39,756 nt of DNA from Kiritimatiellia bacterium (GTDB lineage Bacteria; Verrucomicrobiota; Kiritimatiellia; RFP12; JAAYLN01): the NCBI GenBank assembly GCA_017458965.1, contig JAFSZJ010000065.1:1-39756 (forward strand), given 5' to 3'. Positions within the stretch are counted from its first letter, which is position 1; each line of letters begins with the position of its first letter. A program made the position numbers and the translations under genes. Of the stretch, positions 3,673 through 29,671 are shown one piece after another. The notes under the pieces were generated by a model. It did no database searches. It was not told the DNA's origin and was given only the letters and a program-made list of their open reading frames with translations.

Positions 3673-3771
3673 ACTTGATTTTCCAAGGGTGTTTACAGTT
3701 TTCTGACTCGATTTTCCAATGGTGTTTCCGGATTTCTGACTTGATTTACCATGGGTATTTGTGGTTGCCGC
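3673..3771. repeat. Three tandem 33-bp repeats upstream of the ATPase
   Basis: Units begin at 3673, 3706 and 3739, exactly 33 bp apart. Each opens with ACT(T/C)GATTT(T/A)CCA followed by GGT and T-rich sequence. Units 1 and 2 are close copies; unit 3 is conserved mainly over its first 20 bases. They lie 73-171 bp upstream of the ATPase start. The regular spacing, about three helical turns, suits an iteron or operator array bound on one face of the DNA. Function is inferred. Confidence 0.7.
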
Positions 3772-4019: not shown

Positions 4020-4040
4020 ACATCAACCAGAACAACATAG

Positions 4041-4091
4041 AACAACATACTTCGATGCCGCGCCAACCTGCGCGGCAGATGCCCGGAAAGA
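4041..4091. repeat. 51-bp direct repeat, right copy
   Basis: Identical over 51 bp to 2143-2193, including the 8-bp stem (4056-4063 with 4070-4077) and its CAACCT loop. It lies 41 bp past the stop of recJ, which runs towards it, and marks the right edge of the block holding the ATPase gene. Confidence 0.85.
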
Positions 4092-23904: not shown

Positions 23905-25188
23905 ATGAACTACCCCCGCACACTCCTCGCGGCCGTTGTCGCCGCAACCACCTTCTGCGCGGCATACGCGCAGGAAGCCACCCCCGAAGACGTCGTGGCA
24001 ACCGAGGCCGCCGTCGAGTCCAAGTCCGTCCATGACATGGTGGACGAATACCTGAACGCCAAGGGTTATTCCGAAGGGGAAAACACCAAGGGCGGCAAGC
24101 CGTTCTACGTCGCAGTGGGCTACGGCGTAATTCAGGCGCCGCTCGAAAACCGGAGCTACATCGACTCGCGCGTCAACGCCTACAACAAGGCGATGCTCGA
24201 CGCCAAGGCGAAGATGGCCGAGTATCTTGAAGTCGCCATCAGGACGGAAACAGAGCACGACTATGCCGAGGGCAACTTCGGCGGCAACGAGGAGGCCGAG
24301 GCGGATTCGCTCAGCATAACTTCGAAAATAAAGTCACTAATCAACGCGAAACTAGACAAGGCGCTGCGCGAGGAGGGGCTTGATCCCGACAAGGCCGAGC
24401 GCGAGGCTCGCGAACGCATCGCCAAGAAGCAACTCAATTCCGACTTCTACAAGAAGGTCATCTCAACCGCCGCAAAGGCCGAGATAACCGGAATGCAGGT
24501 CATGTGCGCATTCGAGGGTGTACCTGCCGGCGGGAAGGGGCAGATTGGCGTAGTCGCCATCTGGAGTCCGAAGCTCCAGGCGATGGCGCAGTCGATATCG
24601 CGCGGCACCCGGCTCCCGTCAGGCGTCGGCAAGAAGCCGGTCAAGGAGCAGATTCCATCAGACAACAAGGTACTTCTCTCGACATTCGGCGTGCAGCAGA
24701 AGATCGACGAGAACGGCGACCTTGTGTTAGTCGCGTTCGGCCAGGCTGGAGCCGTGACGGATTCGCCTCAGTCGGCTAACGCCGCCCGCAACAAGGCGAA
24801 GATGCAGGCGATGGCCGCCATCCGCGAATTCGCCGGCGAGAGCGTTGCCGTGACATCCGACGCCGTGAACGCCGAGAACGTGGAGGAGTTCGAGAACGCG
24901 GCGGAGGAATACGAGGACGTTTCAGCCTACTCCCAGAAGATCAAGGCTGCCGCCGAGAAGATGAACATTACAGGAATAGCCACGATAAAGAATTGGGACT
25001 GCAAGCACCCGCTCGCCGCACGCACCGTTTACGGCGCTATCTGCACATGGAGTCCGAAACAGGCCATAAACGCCAAAGACATGAGCAATGCCATGAACGG
25101 CGCGGGAACTCCGCAGCCGCAACCAGTGGTGAACACGACCGACGGTATTCAGAACCGGGGCGCGGACGGGGATGAAGACGCTTTCTGA
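23905..25188 (+). CDS. Exported DUF6844-like protein
   Basis: 427-residue protein with a cleavable signal peptide (LLAAVVAATTFCAAYA, cut before QEAT). Two related halves appear. The first contains YVAVGYGVIQAPLENRSYIDSRVNAYNKAMLDAKAKMAEYL, the second LVLVAFGQAGAVTDSPQSANAARNKAKMQAMAAIREFA. Each looks like the LPP20/DUF6844 pattern of a small strand, then a run of A-x-x-x-A helices. Both halves end with a similar strand, VMCAFEGVPAGGKGQIGVVAIWSPKLQ and ARTVYGAICTWSPKQ. The DUF6844 label is from memory of family appearance. No Shine-Dalgarno is possible: an 8-bp repeat abuts the ATG. It overlaps the next gene by 17 nt. Confidence 0.6.
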   Translation: MNYPRTLLAAVVAATTFCAAYAQEATPEDVVATEAAVESKSVHDMVDEYLNAKGYSEGENTKGGKPFYVAVGYGVIQAPLENRSYIDSRVNAYNKAMLDAKAKMAEYLEVAIRTETEHDYAEGNFGGNEEAEADSLSITSKIKSLINAKLDKALREEGLDPDKAEREARERIAKKQLNSDFYKKVISTAAKAEITGMQVMCAFEGVPAGGKGQIGVVAIWSPKLQAMAQSISRGTRLPSGVGKKPVKEQIPSDNKVLLSTFGVQQKIDENGDLVLVAFGQAGAVTDSPQSANAARNKAKMQAMAAIREFAGESVAVTSDAVNAENVEEFENAAEEYEDVSAYSQKIKAAAEKMNITGIATIKNWDCKHPLAARTVYGAICTWSPKQAINAKDMSNAMNGAGTPQPQPVVNTTDGIQNRGADGDEDAF

Positions 25189-25765
25189 TCGTGTCTGGGC
25201 ACTTGCCGCCCTCATCGCGGCGGTGCTGTCGATCAGCGCCGCCGTTCCCTGCCCCGCCGCCACGGCGGCAGAGGTATTCAAGGCTCACGAGGTCGAAATA
25301 GCCACCAACCGGTGTGTCGCGGTCGGCGGCTATGTTTTCGGCGTGGGGCGGGCGATCTCTCGGCAGGGAGGCGACGCCGTGGGCTTCTCGAAAGCGCGCC
25401 TCCTCGCGCAAGGGAAGATATTGGCATACGCCACAGGCAACGCGCCATGCCCTGAGGGGCTGGAGATCGCCGGTATCGAGACGGTTTTCGAGAGGCGCGA
25501 GGCGCCGGAGCACTACATGGTAGTGGTAGCCGTTATGGAGGCGCAGACTGAAGGTCTGCGCCGACAGGACGCCACAGCACATGCGTGGGAAGGTCTGCGC
25601 CGACAGGACGCCACAGCACATGCGTGGGAAGGTCTGCGCCGACAGGACGCCACAGCAACCGAGCAGGATGCAGCCTGTGCCATAGAGGAGTATGAACCCC
25701 GAGGCTACTGGGAGGAGCGCGGCATCAAAGCAAACGAAACGCTGAGCGAGGCGCAGTTTCTGTGA
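25172..25765 (+). CDS. Small exported protein with REP-derived 13-residue repeats
   Basis: 197-residue protein with a signal peptide (VWALAALIAAVLSISAAVPCPAATA). The first 120 residues resemble the LPP20-like domains of its neighbours: AVGGYVFGVGRAISRQGGDAVGFSKARLLAQGKILAYA, then HYMVVVAVMEAQ. After that come three copies of a 13-residue unit, EGLRRQDATAHAW (the last shortened), encoded by 39-bp tandem DNA repeats. The DNA at the start of this block is a REP hairpin of the same family that flanks the adjacent transposase. The tail YEPRGYWEERGIKANETLSEAQFL resumes normal sequence. The insertion keeps the frame, so the gene may still be functional. Confidence 0.7.
   Translation: MKTLSDRVWALAALIAAVLSISAAVPCPAATAAEVFKAHEVEIATNRCVAVGGYVFGVGRAISRQGGDAVGFSKARLLAQGKILAYATGNAPCPEGLEIAGIETVFERREAPEHYMVVVAVMEAQTEGLRRQDATAHAWEGLRRQDATAHAWEGLRRQDATATEQDAACAIEEYEPRGYWEERGIKANETLSEAQFL
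25541..25568 (+). repeat. REP element 1 (inside a coding gene)
   Basis: Perfect 8-bp stem GCGCAGAC/GTCTGCGC around the loop TGAAG, followed by CGACAGG. Same loop and tail as the REPs flanking the RAYT gene; here it is within the exported protein gene. Confidence 0.75.
25550..25658. repeat. 39-bp tandem repeats (2.8 copies) in coding sequence
   Basis: Identical units begin at 25550, 25589 and 25628, the third cut off at about 31 bp. Each contains the REP right arm and tail plus CGCCACAGC. Being 13 codons long, the repeat preserves the reading frame. Confidence 0.9.
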
Positions 25766-25772
25766 CCACCAT

Positions 25773-25801
25773 CCTGTCGGCGCGGTCCTTCAGACCGCGC
25801 C
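25773..25801 (-). repeat. REP element 2 (left flank of RAYT)
   Basis: Tail CCTGTC, then the perfect 9-bp stem GGCGCGGTC/GACCGCGCC with loop CTTCA. Read on the minus strand this is stem, TGAAG, stem, GACAGG. It ends 18 bp before the RAYT ATG and is inverted relative to REP element 3. Confidence 0.85.
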
Positions 25802-25807
25802 TTGTGG

Positions 25808-25813
25808 CATAAT
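25808..25813 (+). promoter_or_regulatory. -10 box adjacent to RAYT start (leaderless candidate)
   Basis: CATAAT preceded by TGG (extended -10) just after the left REP. Only 6 nt separate it from the ATG at 25820, so the transcript would start at about the ATG. No Shine-Dalgarno site is present. Confidence 0.4.
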
Positions 25814-25819
25814 GTCCGC

Positions 25820-26809
25820 ATGGGCTTTCCGGAATTCAGGGGCGGGCGGCGTTACAAGGGCTACGACTATTCGCGTGGCGCGGTCTTCTTCATTTCCTTC
25901 GGGGTCTCCGGTCGTCCTCCAGTGTTCGGAACTGTCGATGGCGACAAGGTCATCCACAGCGCGGCAGGGCTGGCTGCCTGCGAGACATTGCGCCGCGAGG
26001 CGGAGCGCAACCCAGACATCGCGCTTCACACCTCGGTCGTGATGCCGGACCATGTACACCTGCGTCTATACGTGCGCCCCGGGACCCCAGACCCGATCAA
26101 GGCTGTCGGTGCCTTCGTCGGCAACCTCAAGCGCTGGACCTCCTGGCGCGCGAAGGGGCTGGGCATCACCATCGAATGGGAGCCGAACTACTACGACCGA
26201 CTCTGCCTTTCCCGCGAGATCATAGAGCTTGTCGACAAGTACATAGCGAACAACCCGCTCAAGTGGGCGCTGATGCATGGTCCCAACCCACCGCTCAAGG
26301 TAATCGAGCCCCTCTCCTCGCCGCTGTTGCCGGACTATGAATGGTGGACAGGCGTAGGTGCAGCATCGTGGCTCGACGCCAAACACCGCTTCGCCGCCAT
26401 AAAATTGTCGCGAAGCATTGCTGCGGCCGAGATCCAGGCAGTCGTAGGACGATGCCTGAACGCCGTAAAGAAAGGTTTTGTGCCTATCTCGACCTTTATC
26501 TCCCCGGCGGAGCGGGCGTTGCAGAAGGCTCTCGCCGCACAAGGTGCGCCAATGGCGCGGGTGGTGCCTGACGCACTTGAGACGGTTTACCGCCCCAAGG
26601 AGGACGAACCACCACAGTTCGCGGCAGGGCAACTGCTGCTTTTGTCGCGTGTCGCAGCAGCCAGTATGAGCCGCCATGACGCATGGCACGGGGTGAACGA
26701 CGCCATAGCCGACATGGCGGTGAAGAGTGGCGGAGCTGCGCTCTACGTGGTGCGGGAGAGGCCCGGGGCGCAACTGGAGTGGCGGTTCAGGACGGGAGGC
26801 GAGGTTTGA
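25820..26809 (+). mobile_element. REP-associated tyrosine transposase (RAYT, Y1_Tnp) with extra C-terminal domain
   Basis: 329-residue protein-coding gene. The first 165 residues are a Y1 HUH transposase of the IS200/RAYT type. VVMPDHVHLRLYV holds the metal-binding His-x-His, and NYYDRLCLSREIIELVDKYIANNPLKW holds the catalytic Tyr helix and the usual YIxxNPxxW end. RAYTs bind and cut REP hairpins on single-stranded DNA. Residues about 190-329 are additional: FVPISTFISPAERALQKALA, VPDALETVYRPKEDE, FAAGQLLLLS and RHDAWHGVNDAIADMA. I recognise this tail from some Bacteroidetes RAYTs and it recalls a DprA/SLOG-like Rossmann fold, which is inference. ATG 25820 is chosen from the -10 box at 25808. 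The stop codon lies in the loop of REP element 3. Confidence 0.9.
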
Positions 26810-26826
26810 AGAACCTCGCCGACAGG
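26798..26826 (+). repeat. REP element 3 (right flank of RAYT, holds stop and start codons)
   Basis: Perfect 9-bp stem GGCGAGGTT/AACCTCGCC around the loop TGAAG, then GACAGG. The RAYT stop TGA (26807-26809) forms the loop start, and the likely kinase start TTG (26806-26808) spans the stem-loop junction. Confidence 0.88.
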
Positions 26827-28539
26827 ACGGCCGCCTCAACCCTTACTCTGCCGGGTGAGCGGCGGGCGCCCCCGTTTTCGCCAGGCACGGTGATCGGCGG
26901 AAACCTGCGCATCGTCTCACGGATCGGCGCGGGAGGCATGGGCACGGTATATCTGGCGGTCGATGCAGGGCTGCTGGGAAGGTCGTGCGCCGTGAAGGTG
27001 CTGGACAATGTGGAGGCAGGCGCCGCAAGCCACGGGCGCTTCCTCGCCGAAGCCCGCATCATGGCCTCCCTGCGCCACCCGAACATAGTGCCGGTCTCAC
27101 GCTACGGAACCGATGCCGACACCGGGCTCGACTTTTATGTGATGGACGAGCACCTCCCATCGCGGACGGAGGTGGAGCACATATGCCGGGATGTGCTCCA
27201 TTGTCCAATCCCTGTGACGGATGGCAAGCAATCGCCCTTGACGCTGGCGCGCCTGATCGACGGCGGCAGGACCTTGCCGGAAGCGGCTGTGACCACAATC
27301 GCGCTACAGCTGCTTTCCGCCATGGAGGCGGCACATGCGCTTTCGCCGCCTGTAGTGCACCGCGACATCAAGCCATCCAACATCCTATTCGCAGGTGATG
27401 GACGCGTCGTGCTATCCGACTTCGGAATCGCAAAGCGCATATCCGGGGACGACGGAGCCGCGACGGCGGAATGGACCTCGCCCAACGCCGCTCCTGGCAC
27501 CTGGGCCTATTCGGCGCCGGAGCAACGGCACGGGGGCGTGATCGGCATAGCGACCGACTACTATGCGTACGGCCTTGTGCTTTTCAGGACGCTGACCGGC
27601 GGCATGCCCAACCACGCCGCAGCGTTGCCGACGGACATAGCGCCAAAGGTCTCGAAGCACTGGACCAGGCTCTTCTCAGGTCTCCTAGCTGAAGATCCTG
27701 GCAAGCGCCTTGCCGACGCCGCGCAAGTGCGCAAGACATTGGAGAAGATCGTGGCGGACATAGGCCTGCGCGGGCAACGCAGGAACTACCTGCGCGTGGC
27801 GGCTGGCATCGCCATTGTCGCAGTCCTGGCGACGGCGGTGGGGCGCGGCCTGAAGGATCGTACCGACAGTACGCCACAGCCAACGCAGGACGAGGAACGC
27901 ACCGACAGGGCGCCACAGCCCACGCAGGATGAAGACAGCACAATTACGAAGGAGAAAGACCCGCCATTCGACCACAGGGGATGGTGCCGGCAATATGCCG
28001 AATCACTCCGGGAAACGCTTGATAAGGCGCTTGCCGCGCCCAAGCCCGACGATGCAGGCAGGATCACGGTCCGCGAGGGGCAGACACTCCTTTCAGGGGA
28101 CATCCAGGAAGTCGACAATGTCGTGGAGATAGTTCTCGACGGCGGCGAGATGCGTTTCTCCCCATCAGCAGAGTATCTGCGCGACATAGTTGCCAGATGC
28201 GAGGACTTCGCCGTAAACGCGGCGGATGGGGAGAAGTCGCCTGAAGACCTGTTGCCCACAATGCGCGTGCACTTCTACAAGCCAATATCCGTAACGGAGC
28301 GCGGCGGGCACCTCGACACTGCCGACGGCGAAATAACAGCCCTGCTATCCGGCCCGGTGCGCCGCGCCGATGGCGTGGACAAGGCGACGCTTAAGGTTTT
28401 CGGTTTTTCCTCGATCATCATCGACCGAGCCGAACTCGATCCCGGACTGCGGATAACCGGCGCGGGTCAGATAGCCGATATCGGCTTTGGCGGCGCATTG
28501 CGGAACCGACGCTGGTTCGACGACGAAAACCCGCTATAG
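26806..28539 (+). CDS. Membrane-anchored Ser/Thr protein kinase (PknB type)
   Basis: 577-residue protein if the TTG at 26806 is the start. The kinase domain is complete: GAGGMG loop (about 41-46), catalytic Lys in CAVKVL (64), HRDIKPSN (HRD 185-187), DFG (205-207) and APE (237-239). It is followed by one transmembrane helix (about 328-346) and a 230-residue extracytoplasmic region of unknown fold. GGGAGG (26794-26799) lies 6 nt before the TTG, which overlaps the RAYT stop as TTGA. An in-frame ATG at 26683 would add 41 residues of RAYT-overlapping, atypical sequence. The linker after the membrane helix (RTDSTPQPTQDEE, RTDRAPQPTQDED) is encoded by REP-derived 39-bp repeats. The gene converges on the FHA gene; the stops share the palindrome CTATAG. 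Confidence 0.9.
   Translation: MKNLADRTAASTLTLPGERRAPPFSPGTVIGGNLRIVSRIGAGGMGTVYLAVDAGLLGRSCAVKVLDNVEAGAASHGRFLAEARIMASLRHPNIVPVSRYGTDADTGLDFYVMDEHLPSRTEVEHICRDVLHCPIPVTDGKQSPLTLARLIDGGRTLPEAAVTTIALQLLSAMEAAHALSPPVVHRDIKPSNILFAGDGRVVLSDFGIAKRISGDDGAATAEWTSPNAAPGTWAYSAPEQRHGGVIGIATDYYAYGLVLFRTLTGGMPNHAAALPTDIAPKVSKHWTRLFSGLLAEDPGKRLADAAQVRKTLEKIVADIGLRGQRRNYLRVAAGIAIVAVLATAVGRGLKDRTDSTPQPTQDEERTDRAPQPTQDEDSTITKEKDPPFDHRGWCRQYAESLRETLDKALAAPKPDDAGRITVREGQTLLSGDIQEVDNVVEIVLDGGEMRFSPSAEYLRDIVARCEDFAVNAADGEKSPEDLLPTMRVHFYKPISVTERGGHLDTADGEITALLSGPVRRADGVDKATLKVFGFSSIIIDRAELDPGLRITGAGQIADIGFGGALRNRRWFDDENPL
27842..27869 (+). repeat. REP element 4 (degenerate, inside the kinase gene)
   Basis: GGCGCGGCC, loop TGAAG, GATCGTACC, then GACAG. 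The left arm matches REP element 2 at 8 of 9 positions. The right arm has decayed but still gives 5 Watson-Crick and 2 wobble pairs. It encodes part of the linker after the transmembrane helix. Confidence 0.6.
27862..27939. repeat. Two 39-bp tandem repeats in the kinase linker
   Basis: Units 27862-27900 and 27901-27939 agree at 32 of 39 positions. Each contains a CGACAG.ACGCCACAGC-like core shared (at most one mismatch) with the 39-bp repeats at 25550-25658. They encode two 13-residue Pro/Gln/Asp-rich units. Confidence 0.8.
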
Positions 28540-28962
28540 AAGAAGGAAGGAGGAACTTCCCGCACGGATGACGTCGCCGCGCCGGAGCGGGGCGCAGTCT
28601 TCAACGGCTTCGTCGTTCACAAATGTGCCGTTCTTTGCGCCAAGGCAGCGCAAAGCAGGACTGCCATTCGCCTCCACGGCGAAGAGAAAATGACGGCGCG
28701 ACATCCATGGGTCGTCGATCCGCCAGTGCGGGGTGCCGGCATCAGGGCTGCGACCGACCTCAACCCCCTCCCCCGCATGCAAGATCCTGACTTCGGTACA
28801 GTCCCGCGCCACCAGGCAAATTGCATAGGCTCCCTTTGCGCCATCAATGACATCCTGCGGTATGCGACCCTCGGAAACTAGCCGAGAACCAATGGCAAGG
28901 ACGTTGCCGAGGAGTGTATTGTCCTTGTGCGCGGACGCGCCGCTGGTTGCGATTTCAGTCAT
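28534..28962 (-). CDS. FHA-domain protein
   Basis: 142-residue cytoplasmic protein. The C-terminal 80 residues are an FHA (phosphothreonine-binding) domain: EVGRSPDAG with the GR pair (70-71), SRRH (88-91) and GAKNGTFVND (108-117). The first 60 residues are a short N-terminal region without a recognisable motif. It probably docks to proteins phosphorylated by the kinase encoded opposite. The ATG at 28962 has GGGGAGG about 9 nt upstream and overlaps the sigma-factor stop by 8 nt, so the two are co-translated. Its stop codon abuts that of the kinase. Confidence 0.9.
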   Translation of the reverse strand: MTEIATSGASAHKDNTLLGNVLAIGSRLVSEGRIPQDVIDGAKGAYAICLVARDCTEVRILHAGEGVEVGRSPDAGTPHWRIDDPWMSRRHFLFAVEANGSPALRCLGAKNGTFVNDEAVEDCAPLRRGDVIRAGSSSFLLL

Positions 28963-29671
28963 GGCCGTTTGCCTCCCCTTCGCGCTCAAGTGCGCAGATC
29001 ATGTCGAGAATGTCCCCTGATTCGCGCTGAAGGGCGCGAGCCTTATCCGTCAGCTTAGCCACGACGCGGTTCTTAAGCTGGTAGATCGCATTCCGGTCCA
29101 TGCCGTACTCCTCCGCAAGCGCCGAAGCGGGCTCACCTGCGGCAAGGCGCATGAATATCGCCTTGGACCGTCCGGAGAAGTTGGATTCCCTGAAGACACG
29201 GTCGACAAGCAGACGCGAGAGCTCCATGCGCAACCGCCCGGCAGCTTCTCCATCGTTCCCGCCCTCAAATGGCGGCAAGCCAAGCCCATCGCGGACAATG
29301 ATCGCCTTCTCCTCCGGCAATGATCGCAGGGATGCGCGTCCGGCGTCATCCAGGCAATCGATGGCGCGATTGCGCAAAATAGACTGGAGGAGAGTGCGGA
29401 AGCGGGCGCGGTCCTTGTCGTAGCGCCTTTGCGGGAAAAGCTTCATCAGCGACACCATCGTTTCCTGGATGATGTCATCGAACATGTCAGGTGATAGCGA
29501 CGGCAACGGCCCGTTCCTAAGGCATTGAAGCCAATAGGTCAGAACCGGGGTATAGAGGTTGACGAACTCCGTCCATCGGACGGAATCCGCCCCGTCGGCA
29601 AGGTCGCGGAGCATCGTCGATGATGTTTCCGGCACAGGGCAGTTTACAGATGTCTTCATGGGCGAATCCAT
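28955..29671 (-). CDS. Sigma-70 family (ECF-like) RNA polymerase sigma factor
   Basis: 238-residue sigma factor. Region 2 is seen in FDDIIQETMVSLMKLFPQRRYDKDRARFRTLLQSILRNRAID (about residues 65-106). Region 4, a helix-turn-helix, is AIFMRLAAGEPASALAEEYGMDRNAIYQLKNRVVAKL (about 175-212). Regions 1 and 3 are absent, as in ECF sigmas. ATG 29671 is used; ATG 29659 is four codons later. It sits upstream of the FHA gene with an overlap, beside the kinase, suggesting regulation by a phosphorylation relay instead of a membrane anti-sigma factor, since none is visible. It is divergent from the GH2 gene. Confidence 0.88.
   Translation of the reverse strand: MDSPMKTSVNCPVPETSSTMLRDLADGADSVRWTEFVNLYTPVLTYWLQCLRNGPLPSLSPDMFDDIIQETMVSLMKLFPQRRYDKDRARFRTLLQSILRNRAIDCLDDAGRASLRSLPEEKAIIVRDGLGLPPFEGGNDGEAAGRLRMELSRLLVDRVFRESNFSGRSKAIFMRLAAGEPASALAEEYGMDRNAIYQLKNRVVAKLTDKARALQRESGDILDMICALEREGEANGHD

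Follow-up and report, generated by a model that had tools for sequence, protein, structure and literature searches.

Intragenic REPs of the GTAG and CGTC types, many of them in Opitutus terrae (Verrucomicrobia) and R. conorii, were described by Di Nocera et al. (2013, PMC3733652), in whose passages on these repeats the copies located in ORFs encode 20–30 residues or more, clusters enlarge the coded segment, the host genes include those for DNA repair, tRNA synthetase, pseudouridine synthase and others, and flexible linkers or loops are proposed as tolerant sites. The same passages portray CGTC repeats as having no association with transposase genes and characterize the class by its tag (CGTC, also TGTC or CCTC), A-T at the first two stem positions and a CCA-type tail. 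Rickettsia palindromic elements (RPEs; Ogata et al. 2000, 2002), as outlined in the part of PMC10969869 that concerns them, are in-frame protein-coding inserts of ~150 bp, and that outline names no mobilising enzyme.

The window, i.e., the whole stretch of 39,756 nucleotides that was analyzed, corresponds to contig C13; the genome measures 1.75 Mb and is 63% complete. Like the intragenic REPs of O. terrae and R. conorii, the family found here consists of short palindromes inside ORFs, but its tag is CGTCCTGTC, with a stem base rich in G+C, where PMC3733652 describes GTAG or CGTC beside the stem; those passages give no orientation or frame figure for the intragenic copies. It resembles the RPEs as outlined in PMC10969869 in its in-frame spread through unrelated genes and in encoding a conserved peptide, while it differs in its unit of 32 nt, in adjoining a RAYT-like gene and in its host, a rumen Kiritimatiellae lineage, and some copies share a longer flank. 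As in the REPtrons described in parts of PMC3733652 and PMC6006769, a RAYT-like HUH/Y1 gene lies between inverted REPs, with dispersed copies elsewhere: the palindrome is imperfect, has a conserved unpaired tag and occurs in several copies (three in the window plus those on contigs C55 and C122), and palindromes flank the Y1/HUH tyrosine transposase gene, an arrangement also found in genome G053. The same parts of these sources place classical REPs mostly outside genes, whereas the present family lies mostly within them and lacks GTAG; no conserved GTAG (GYAG, GTRG, GTGG, etc.) was found on either side of the stem-loop.

With respect to the CGTC class, CGTC stands at the end of the tag, and the stem of 9 and loop of 5 fall within the class limits (stem 8–9 bp, loop 4–5 nt), but the stem begins with G-C, CTGTC separates CGTC from the stem, the CCA tail is not conserved, and a RAYT-like gene adjoins, unlike in that class. 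In common with protein-coding palindromes, copies sit in frame within conserved genes that are unrelated to each other (27 Pfam-supported in genome G004) and are missing from orthologues. Assignment to either the GTAG or the CGTC class was rejected on account of the tag, the stem base and the tail; the family lacks a GTAG tag and fits the CGTC class incompletely, yet it behaves like both, being a REP next to a RAYT-like gene that resides in proteins. Protein-coding palindromes are already known, and the many published examples (in the cited passages of PMC3733652, and the RPEs in the cited part of PMC10969869) contradict the remark of the earlier note that few REP-coded protein segments exist. 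What is new is the tag CGTCCTGTC, the RAYT-like neighbor, and an orientation and frame that hardly vary.

Palindromes, tandem array and RAYT-like gene in the window

The three intact palindromes (Table 1) have a common design, GGCGCnGnC-TGAAG-GnCnGCGCC-GACAGGACG, with a 9-bp stem, a 5-nt loop and the tag GACAGGACG / CGTCCTGTC. Covariation within the family is clear (10 cells changed on both sides, reached in 0/500 shuffles). The copy in the kinase linker folds with −1.4 kcal/mol vs. −10 to −12.5 for intact REPs and has lost its hairpin.

REP2 and REP3 flank the RAYT-like gene, whose product matches NCBIfam NF047646 (REP_Tyr_transpos) with E = 4e−7, below the model cut-off, and Pfam Y1_Tnp with 6e−4. 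REP3 contains the stop codon of this gene (TGA, 26807–26809), overlapped at 26806 by a TTG with GGAGG 6 nt upstream, a candidate start codon of the kinase. With this arrangement, the REP3 palindrome may be the source of the kinase start site, coupling kinase translation. Kinase orthologues start ~10 residues ahead of the PGT motif and have no such N-terminal extension. The earlier note had one mobile repeat supplying two parts of the same protein; the linker part stands, and the REP3 part amounts to this candidate start. Other RAYT relatives (L091, L093, and L094, ~50% identical) are flanked by different palindromes, e.g., GGTAGTGGCGGATC-n-GATCCGCCACTACC and AAGTGYGGCC-TGAAG-GGCCRCACTT, which form separate REP families, some of them keeping the TGAAG loop.

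Upstream of the transposase gene, the 3′ half of REP1 has grown into a 39-bp array with identical units 1 and 2. L131, the closest orthologue of ORF 25172 (66% identical), has no array, and orthologues of this ORF lack the REP insert. Two further repeats occur in the window: a 58-bp direct repeat (2136–2193 and 4034–4091, 95% identical, 1.9 kb apart) that carries a GCCGCGC-n-GCGCGGC palindrome and belongs to another repeat family, and three tandem 33-bp units at 3673–3771 (ACTTGATTTTCCAAGGGTGTTTACAGTTTTCTG, 70–85% identical).

Table 1 Features of the palindrome family in the window and on two other contigs of the same genome
Feature	Position	Strand	Details
REP1, intact, within ORF 25172–25765	25540–25571	+	54.7 bits; hairpin −11.3 kcal/mol
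39-bp × 3 array, grown from the 3′ half of REP1	25550–25666	+	repeat search; encodes (EGLRRQDATAHAW)n in ORF 25172–25765
REP2, intact, upstream of transposase gene, inverted vs. REP3	25770–25801	−	55.4 bits; hairpin −12.5 kcal/mol
RAYT-like (REP-associated tyrosine transposase) gene	25802–26809	+	HUH motif HVH, tyrosine motif YIANNP
REP3, intact	26798–26829	+	55.5 bits; hairpin −10.1 kcal/mol
Ser/Thr protein kinase, host of the linker REP	26806–28539	+	Pfam Pkinase E = 2.7e−31; orthologues L044–L050
Decayed REP copy in the kinase linker	27842–27873	+ (sense)	encodes GLKDRTDST; hairpin lost
Two 39-bp units in the kinase linker	27852–27890 and 27891–27929	+	each = REP 3′ half + tail + spacer
L237	C55:6095–6126		in frame in P-type metal ATPase, after HMA domain; RPVGAVLQAAS
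L238	C122:2941–2972		in frame in hybrid histidine kinase, between HATPase and receiver; RPVGEVLQTSS

The palindrome copy in the kinase linker

The kinase consists of the kinase domain, a TM helix, a linker and a C-terminal domain that is also found in orthologues, and the REP copy directly follows the TM helix (~27794–27841, read from the sequence). Its sequence (GGCGCGGCCTGAAGGATCGTACCGACAGTACG) was assessed with a covariance model of the family (R1) that was built from nine intact REPs, the kinase site being excluded. The copy reached 27.3 bits (E = 1.2e−4), compared to 54.7–55.5 bits for the intact window REPs and ~12 bits for chance matches, and it was the sole imperfect site clearly flagged in the window, the REP/array region excepted. 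It is identical to REP1 (25540) at 24/32 positions, to REP2 (25801–25770) at 26/32, i.e., with six differences, and to REP3 (26798) at 23/32, while unrelated window sites reach at most 20/32. The claim that a member of the same family, close to REP2, lies in the linker just after the TM helix was thus borne out, as was its in-frame location: the copy is read in the kinase frame, the same as that in which REP3 is read at the start of the kinase (expected by chance in one case out of three).

The two 39-bp units behind it, which had been noted as Pro/Gln/Asp repeats following the palindrome, are indeed present and encode ~13 such residues each (RTDSTPQPTQDEE / RTDRAPQPTQDED), but they are not a feature of their own, and this description was dropped: each unit comprises the 3′ half of the REP together with the tail, at the 39-bp period of the array. 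They are 32/39 identical to each other and 27/39 to the units at 25550. Taken together, 27842–27925 matches the REP plus array at 25540–25623 at 61/84 positions, against a background with a mean of 22.9 (sd 4.2), and the 16-nt tail GACAGGACGCCACAGC was found twice in the kinase, at 15/16. In a scan of 59 genomes for the REP-tail pattern only the array and the kinase stood out; other matches were scattered, had two mismatches and were no commoner than in the control.

An ordinary low-complexity Pro/Gln/Asp linker could resemble a REP by chance or composition, and in this kinase family linkers with in-house tandem repeats are normal and LRDRT/LRSRA-type juxtamembrane residues occur in REP-free orthologues. 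We nevertheless consider this explanation scarcely credible, as the next unrelated window site reaches 44 of the 84 positions, synonymous redraws of the kinase peptide with local codon usage attained 61/84 only once in 20,000 (mean 50.4), the model E-value is low, and the two tail copies are spaced at the period of the array. The match is therefore real at the DNA level. The encoded residues are another matter: REP-free orthologues carry LRDRTP (L046), LRSRAPT (L044), and IKGRAEA (L047) at the start of the linker, so the amino acid motif alone is no evidence, and a conserved LKxxxDxT motif coded by the REP, to which the earlier note had drawn attention, was discarded.

Seven related kinases (L044–L050) with the same C-terminal domain, only ~45% identical, differ in their linkers, which span 14 to ~70 residues and show no conserved sequence; three of these linkers hold tandem repeats of their own that are unrelated to the present ones. 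No convincing REP was found at these seven loci. A search of genomes G018, G022, G033, G050, and G056 with a REP pattern gave no perfect match, and matches with two mismatches were only slightly above the control. A library-wide genome scan with the kinase returned one locus, L054, in a Kiritimatiellae MAG from sheep omasum, and no genome with an empty kinase site at high DNA identity was found. Kinases from genomes without a clear REP lack the segment, as the proposed orthologue alignment had predicted, and what the linker has in common with REP-free orthologues is limited to its first 4–5 residues and does not extend to the remainder. The unrelated linkers of these REP-free orthologues point to a tolerant site, into which the segment was inserted in this lineage.

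The same comparison bears on the word "exapted," which the earlier note had applied to this segment. The REP-derived residues might by now be under selection, e.g., by serving as a spacer behind the membrane helix and setting the signaling geometry, and an intact reading frame across both units as well as synonymous changes in the kinase frame at three of the five REP2 differences that depart from the family consensus (too few to test) would agree with that. Such a role appears improbable, since neither the length nor the sequence of the linker is conserved among orthologues, unrelated repeats occupy the same place, several orthologues having their own, and the segment is common to no relative; no sign of function was seen.

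The palindrome family in related genomes

With the covariance model, five intact copies were counted in the window genome, five in G053, ~35 in G004 and one in G112, while 158 of 162 genomes of the order had no copy at E ≤ 1e−5. Four of the five REPs of G053, which have the same design, surround the gene whose product, at 72% identity, is nearest to the RAYT-like protein. In G004, a related rumen bacterium of the same family as the window genome, none of the RAYT-like matches listed was located < 10 kb from a strong REP match, and the exact G004-type REP was absent from viral contigs.

Most G004 copies are situated within long ORFs. By codon usage, 24 of 35 occupy the antisense frame CGT CCT GTC GGC GCG GTT CTT CAA ACC GCG, which reads RPVGAVLQTA. 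All 27 copies in or at Pfam-supported genes are antisense to the gene (p = 7e−9), and 22 of them encode the peptide RPVGAVLQTAP, almost always within linkers, a frame preference with p = 1e−11 vs. five open frames and 4e−7 given antisense orientation; the nine sense-strand ORFs tested in this genome had 0 Pfam matches. The hosts of the RPVGAV frame are MutL, a glycosyltransferase, FtsK, RimO, CysRS, an ABC-F protein, a dipeptide-type ABC ATPase, a HAD phosphatase and pseudouridine synthase (one ORF with two copies), TatD, an L,D-transpeptidase, a FAD oxidoreductase, YceD, an ABC exporter, an M16C peptidase, ParB, VIT, PD40, TPR, and DUF2764 proteins, DnaX, and an HTH_25 (RodZ-like) protein, while a second antisense frame (SCRRSPLDCA) is used in an amylase, GspE, a cellulase, an exonuclease, and a T2SS G protein. 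By Pfam coordinates nearly all of these inserts are placed between domains or near termini, TatD being the clear exception, and for L208, L214, L216, and L230, which are near ORF 5′ ends, the true start may be downstream of the REP. The CysRS of G002 (same genus, 83% identical) has no insert, nor do relatives of the histidine kinase on contig C122. The peptide RPVGAVLQ was not mentioned in the literature searched. The palindrome family is thus far more often coding than is visible from the window alone.

In-frame tandem tails recur elsewhere (L205 and L234), including RPIGAAATRPAGATATRPVGAVLQTAP at L205 and, on the sense strand, ARSEGPREQDGHAREQDGPAREQDD in a glutamate synthase of G053. As noted at L200, L204, L208, L210, L217, and L226, many G004 copies share a longer 5′ flank (~CCCGCACCCCGCGCT, translated as RPVGAVLQTAPARGAGREAPP), and others have GCGGCCGCCGTGGCA in common, which reads ...TAPATAAAPAA. 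The mobile unit may extend beyond the 32-nt REP and fall into subtypes.

Origin of the kinase segment and its meaning

In relatives, a DUF6844 gene, a homologue of ORF 25172, a reversed kinase and a divergent sigma factor form the neighborhood that corresponds to 23905–29671 of the window, where the RAYT-like gene and an FHA gene intervene and the kinase and sigma genes are flipped. As ORF 25172 and the kinase lie tail to tail in relatives, with the sigma gene divergent, and both order and orientation differ in the window, the kinase locus has been rearranged.

Taking these results together, the segment is very probably an in-frame fossil of a mobile REP with a two-unit 39-bp expansion, derived from the neighboring REP/RAYT cluster and lodged in a tolerant linker. 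The RAYT-like protein would cut and paste the palindromes as single strands, and one of them would have entered the kinase gene from the cluster next door. Selection would then filter the insertions, leaving mainly copies that keep the frame and encode a harmless peptide, replication slippage would build in-frame tandem units from the tail, and the hairpin would decay afterwards. The kinase insert presumably survived because a linker behind a TM helix tolerates almost any soluble sequence.

The kinase copy is on the sense strand, unlike the 27/27 antisense Pfam-supported copies of G004, and is therefore an untypical coding insertion of the family. It shares this strand with the copy in ORF 25172, both being located beside the transposase gene and both having in-frame tandem tails. 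Since the CCACAGC tail and the 39-bp period are limited to these two loci, they probably have a shared source, either one having been copied from the other or both from a common array. Recombination or gene conversion between ORF 25172 (2.3 kb upstream) and the kinase linker, in either direction and without the transposase, would account for this restriction, and the rearranged locus is in line with it, although the hairpin half in the kinase is nearer to REP2 than to REP1, from which the array grew. The two units of the linker also differ from each other, in contrast to the identical units 1 and 2 of the array, so that the kinase copy may be the older one. We regard such local copying as a substantial possibility, somewhat short of an even chance for the explanation as a whole; with the tail in common with the array and the hairpin nearer to REP2, local recombination or conversion is as likely as fresh transposition.

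Palindromes inside rickettsial proteins have reportedly been known since 2000. The present case adds a coding palindrome family next to an intact RAYT-like gene, with > 25 host genes, which makes approachable what moves protein-coding palindromes and why one orientation and frame is used. We give an even chance to a wider scenario in which a RAYT-driven family moved from its extragenic niche into genes and came to occupy almost exclusively one orientation and frame in one Kiritimatiellae genome, strand-biased insertion and peptide filtering made RPVGAVLQTAP a portable and harmless linker module, and older copies decayed to ordinary protein. If true, this would link RPE-type protein-coding palindromes to an identifiable transposase. 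The copies also form a graded series, with fresh insertions at one end and fossils like the kinase linker at the other, which is a natural record of mobile DNA becoming linker peptide. With the same palindrome family in frame in at least twenty other proteins of the related rumen bacterium G004, this is a striking example of a route from mobile DNA to protein that is known but has received little study.
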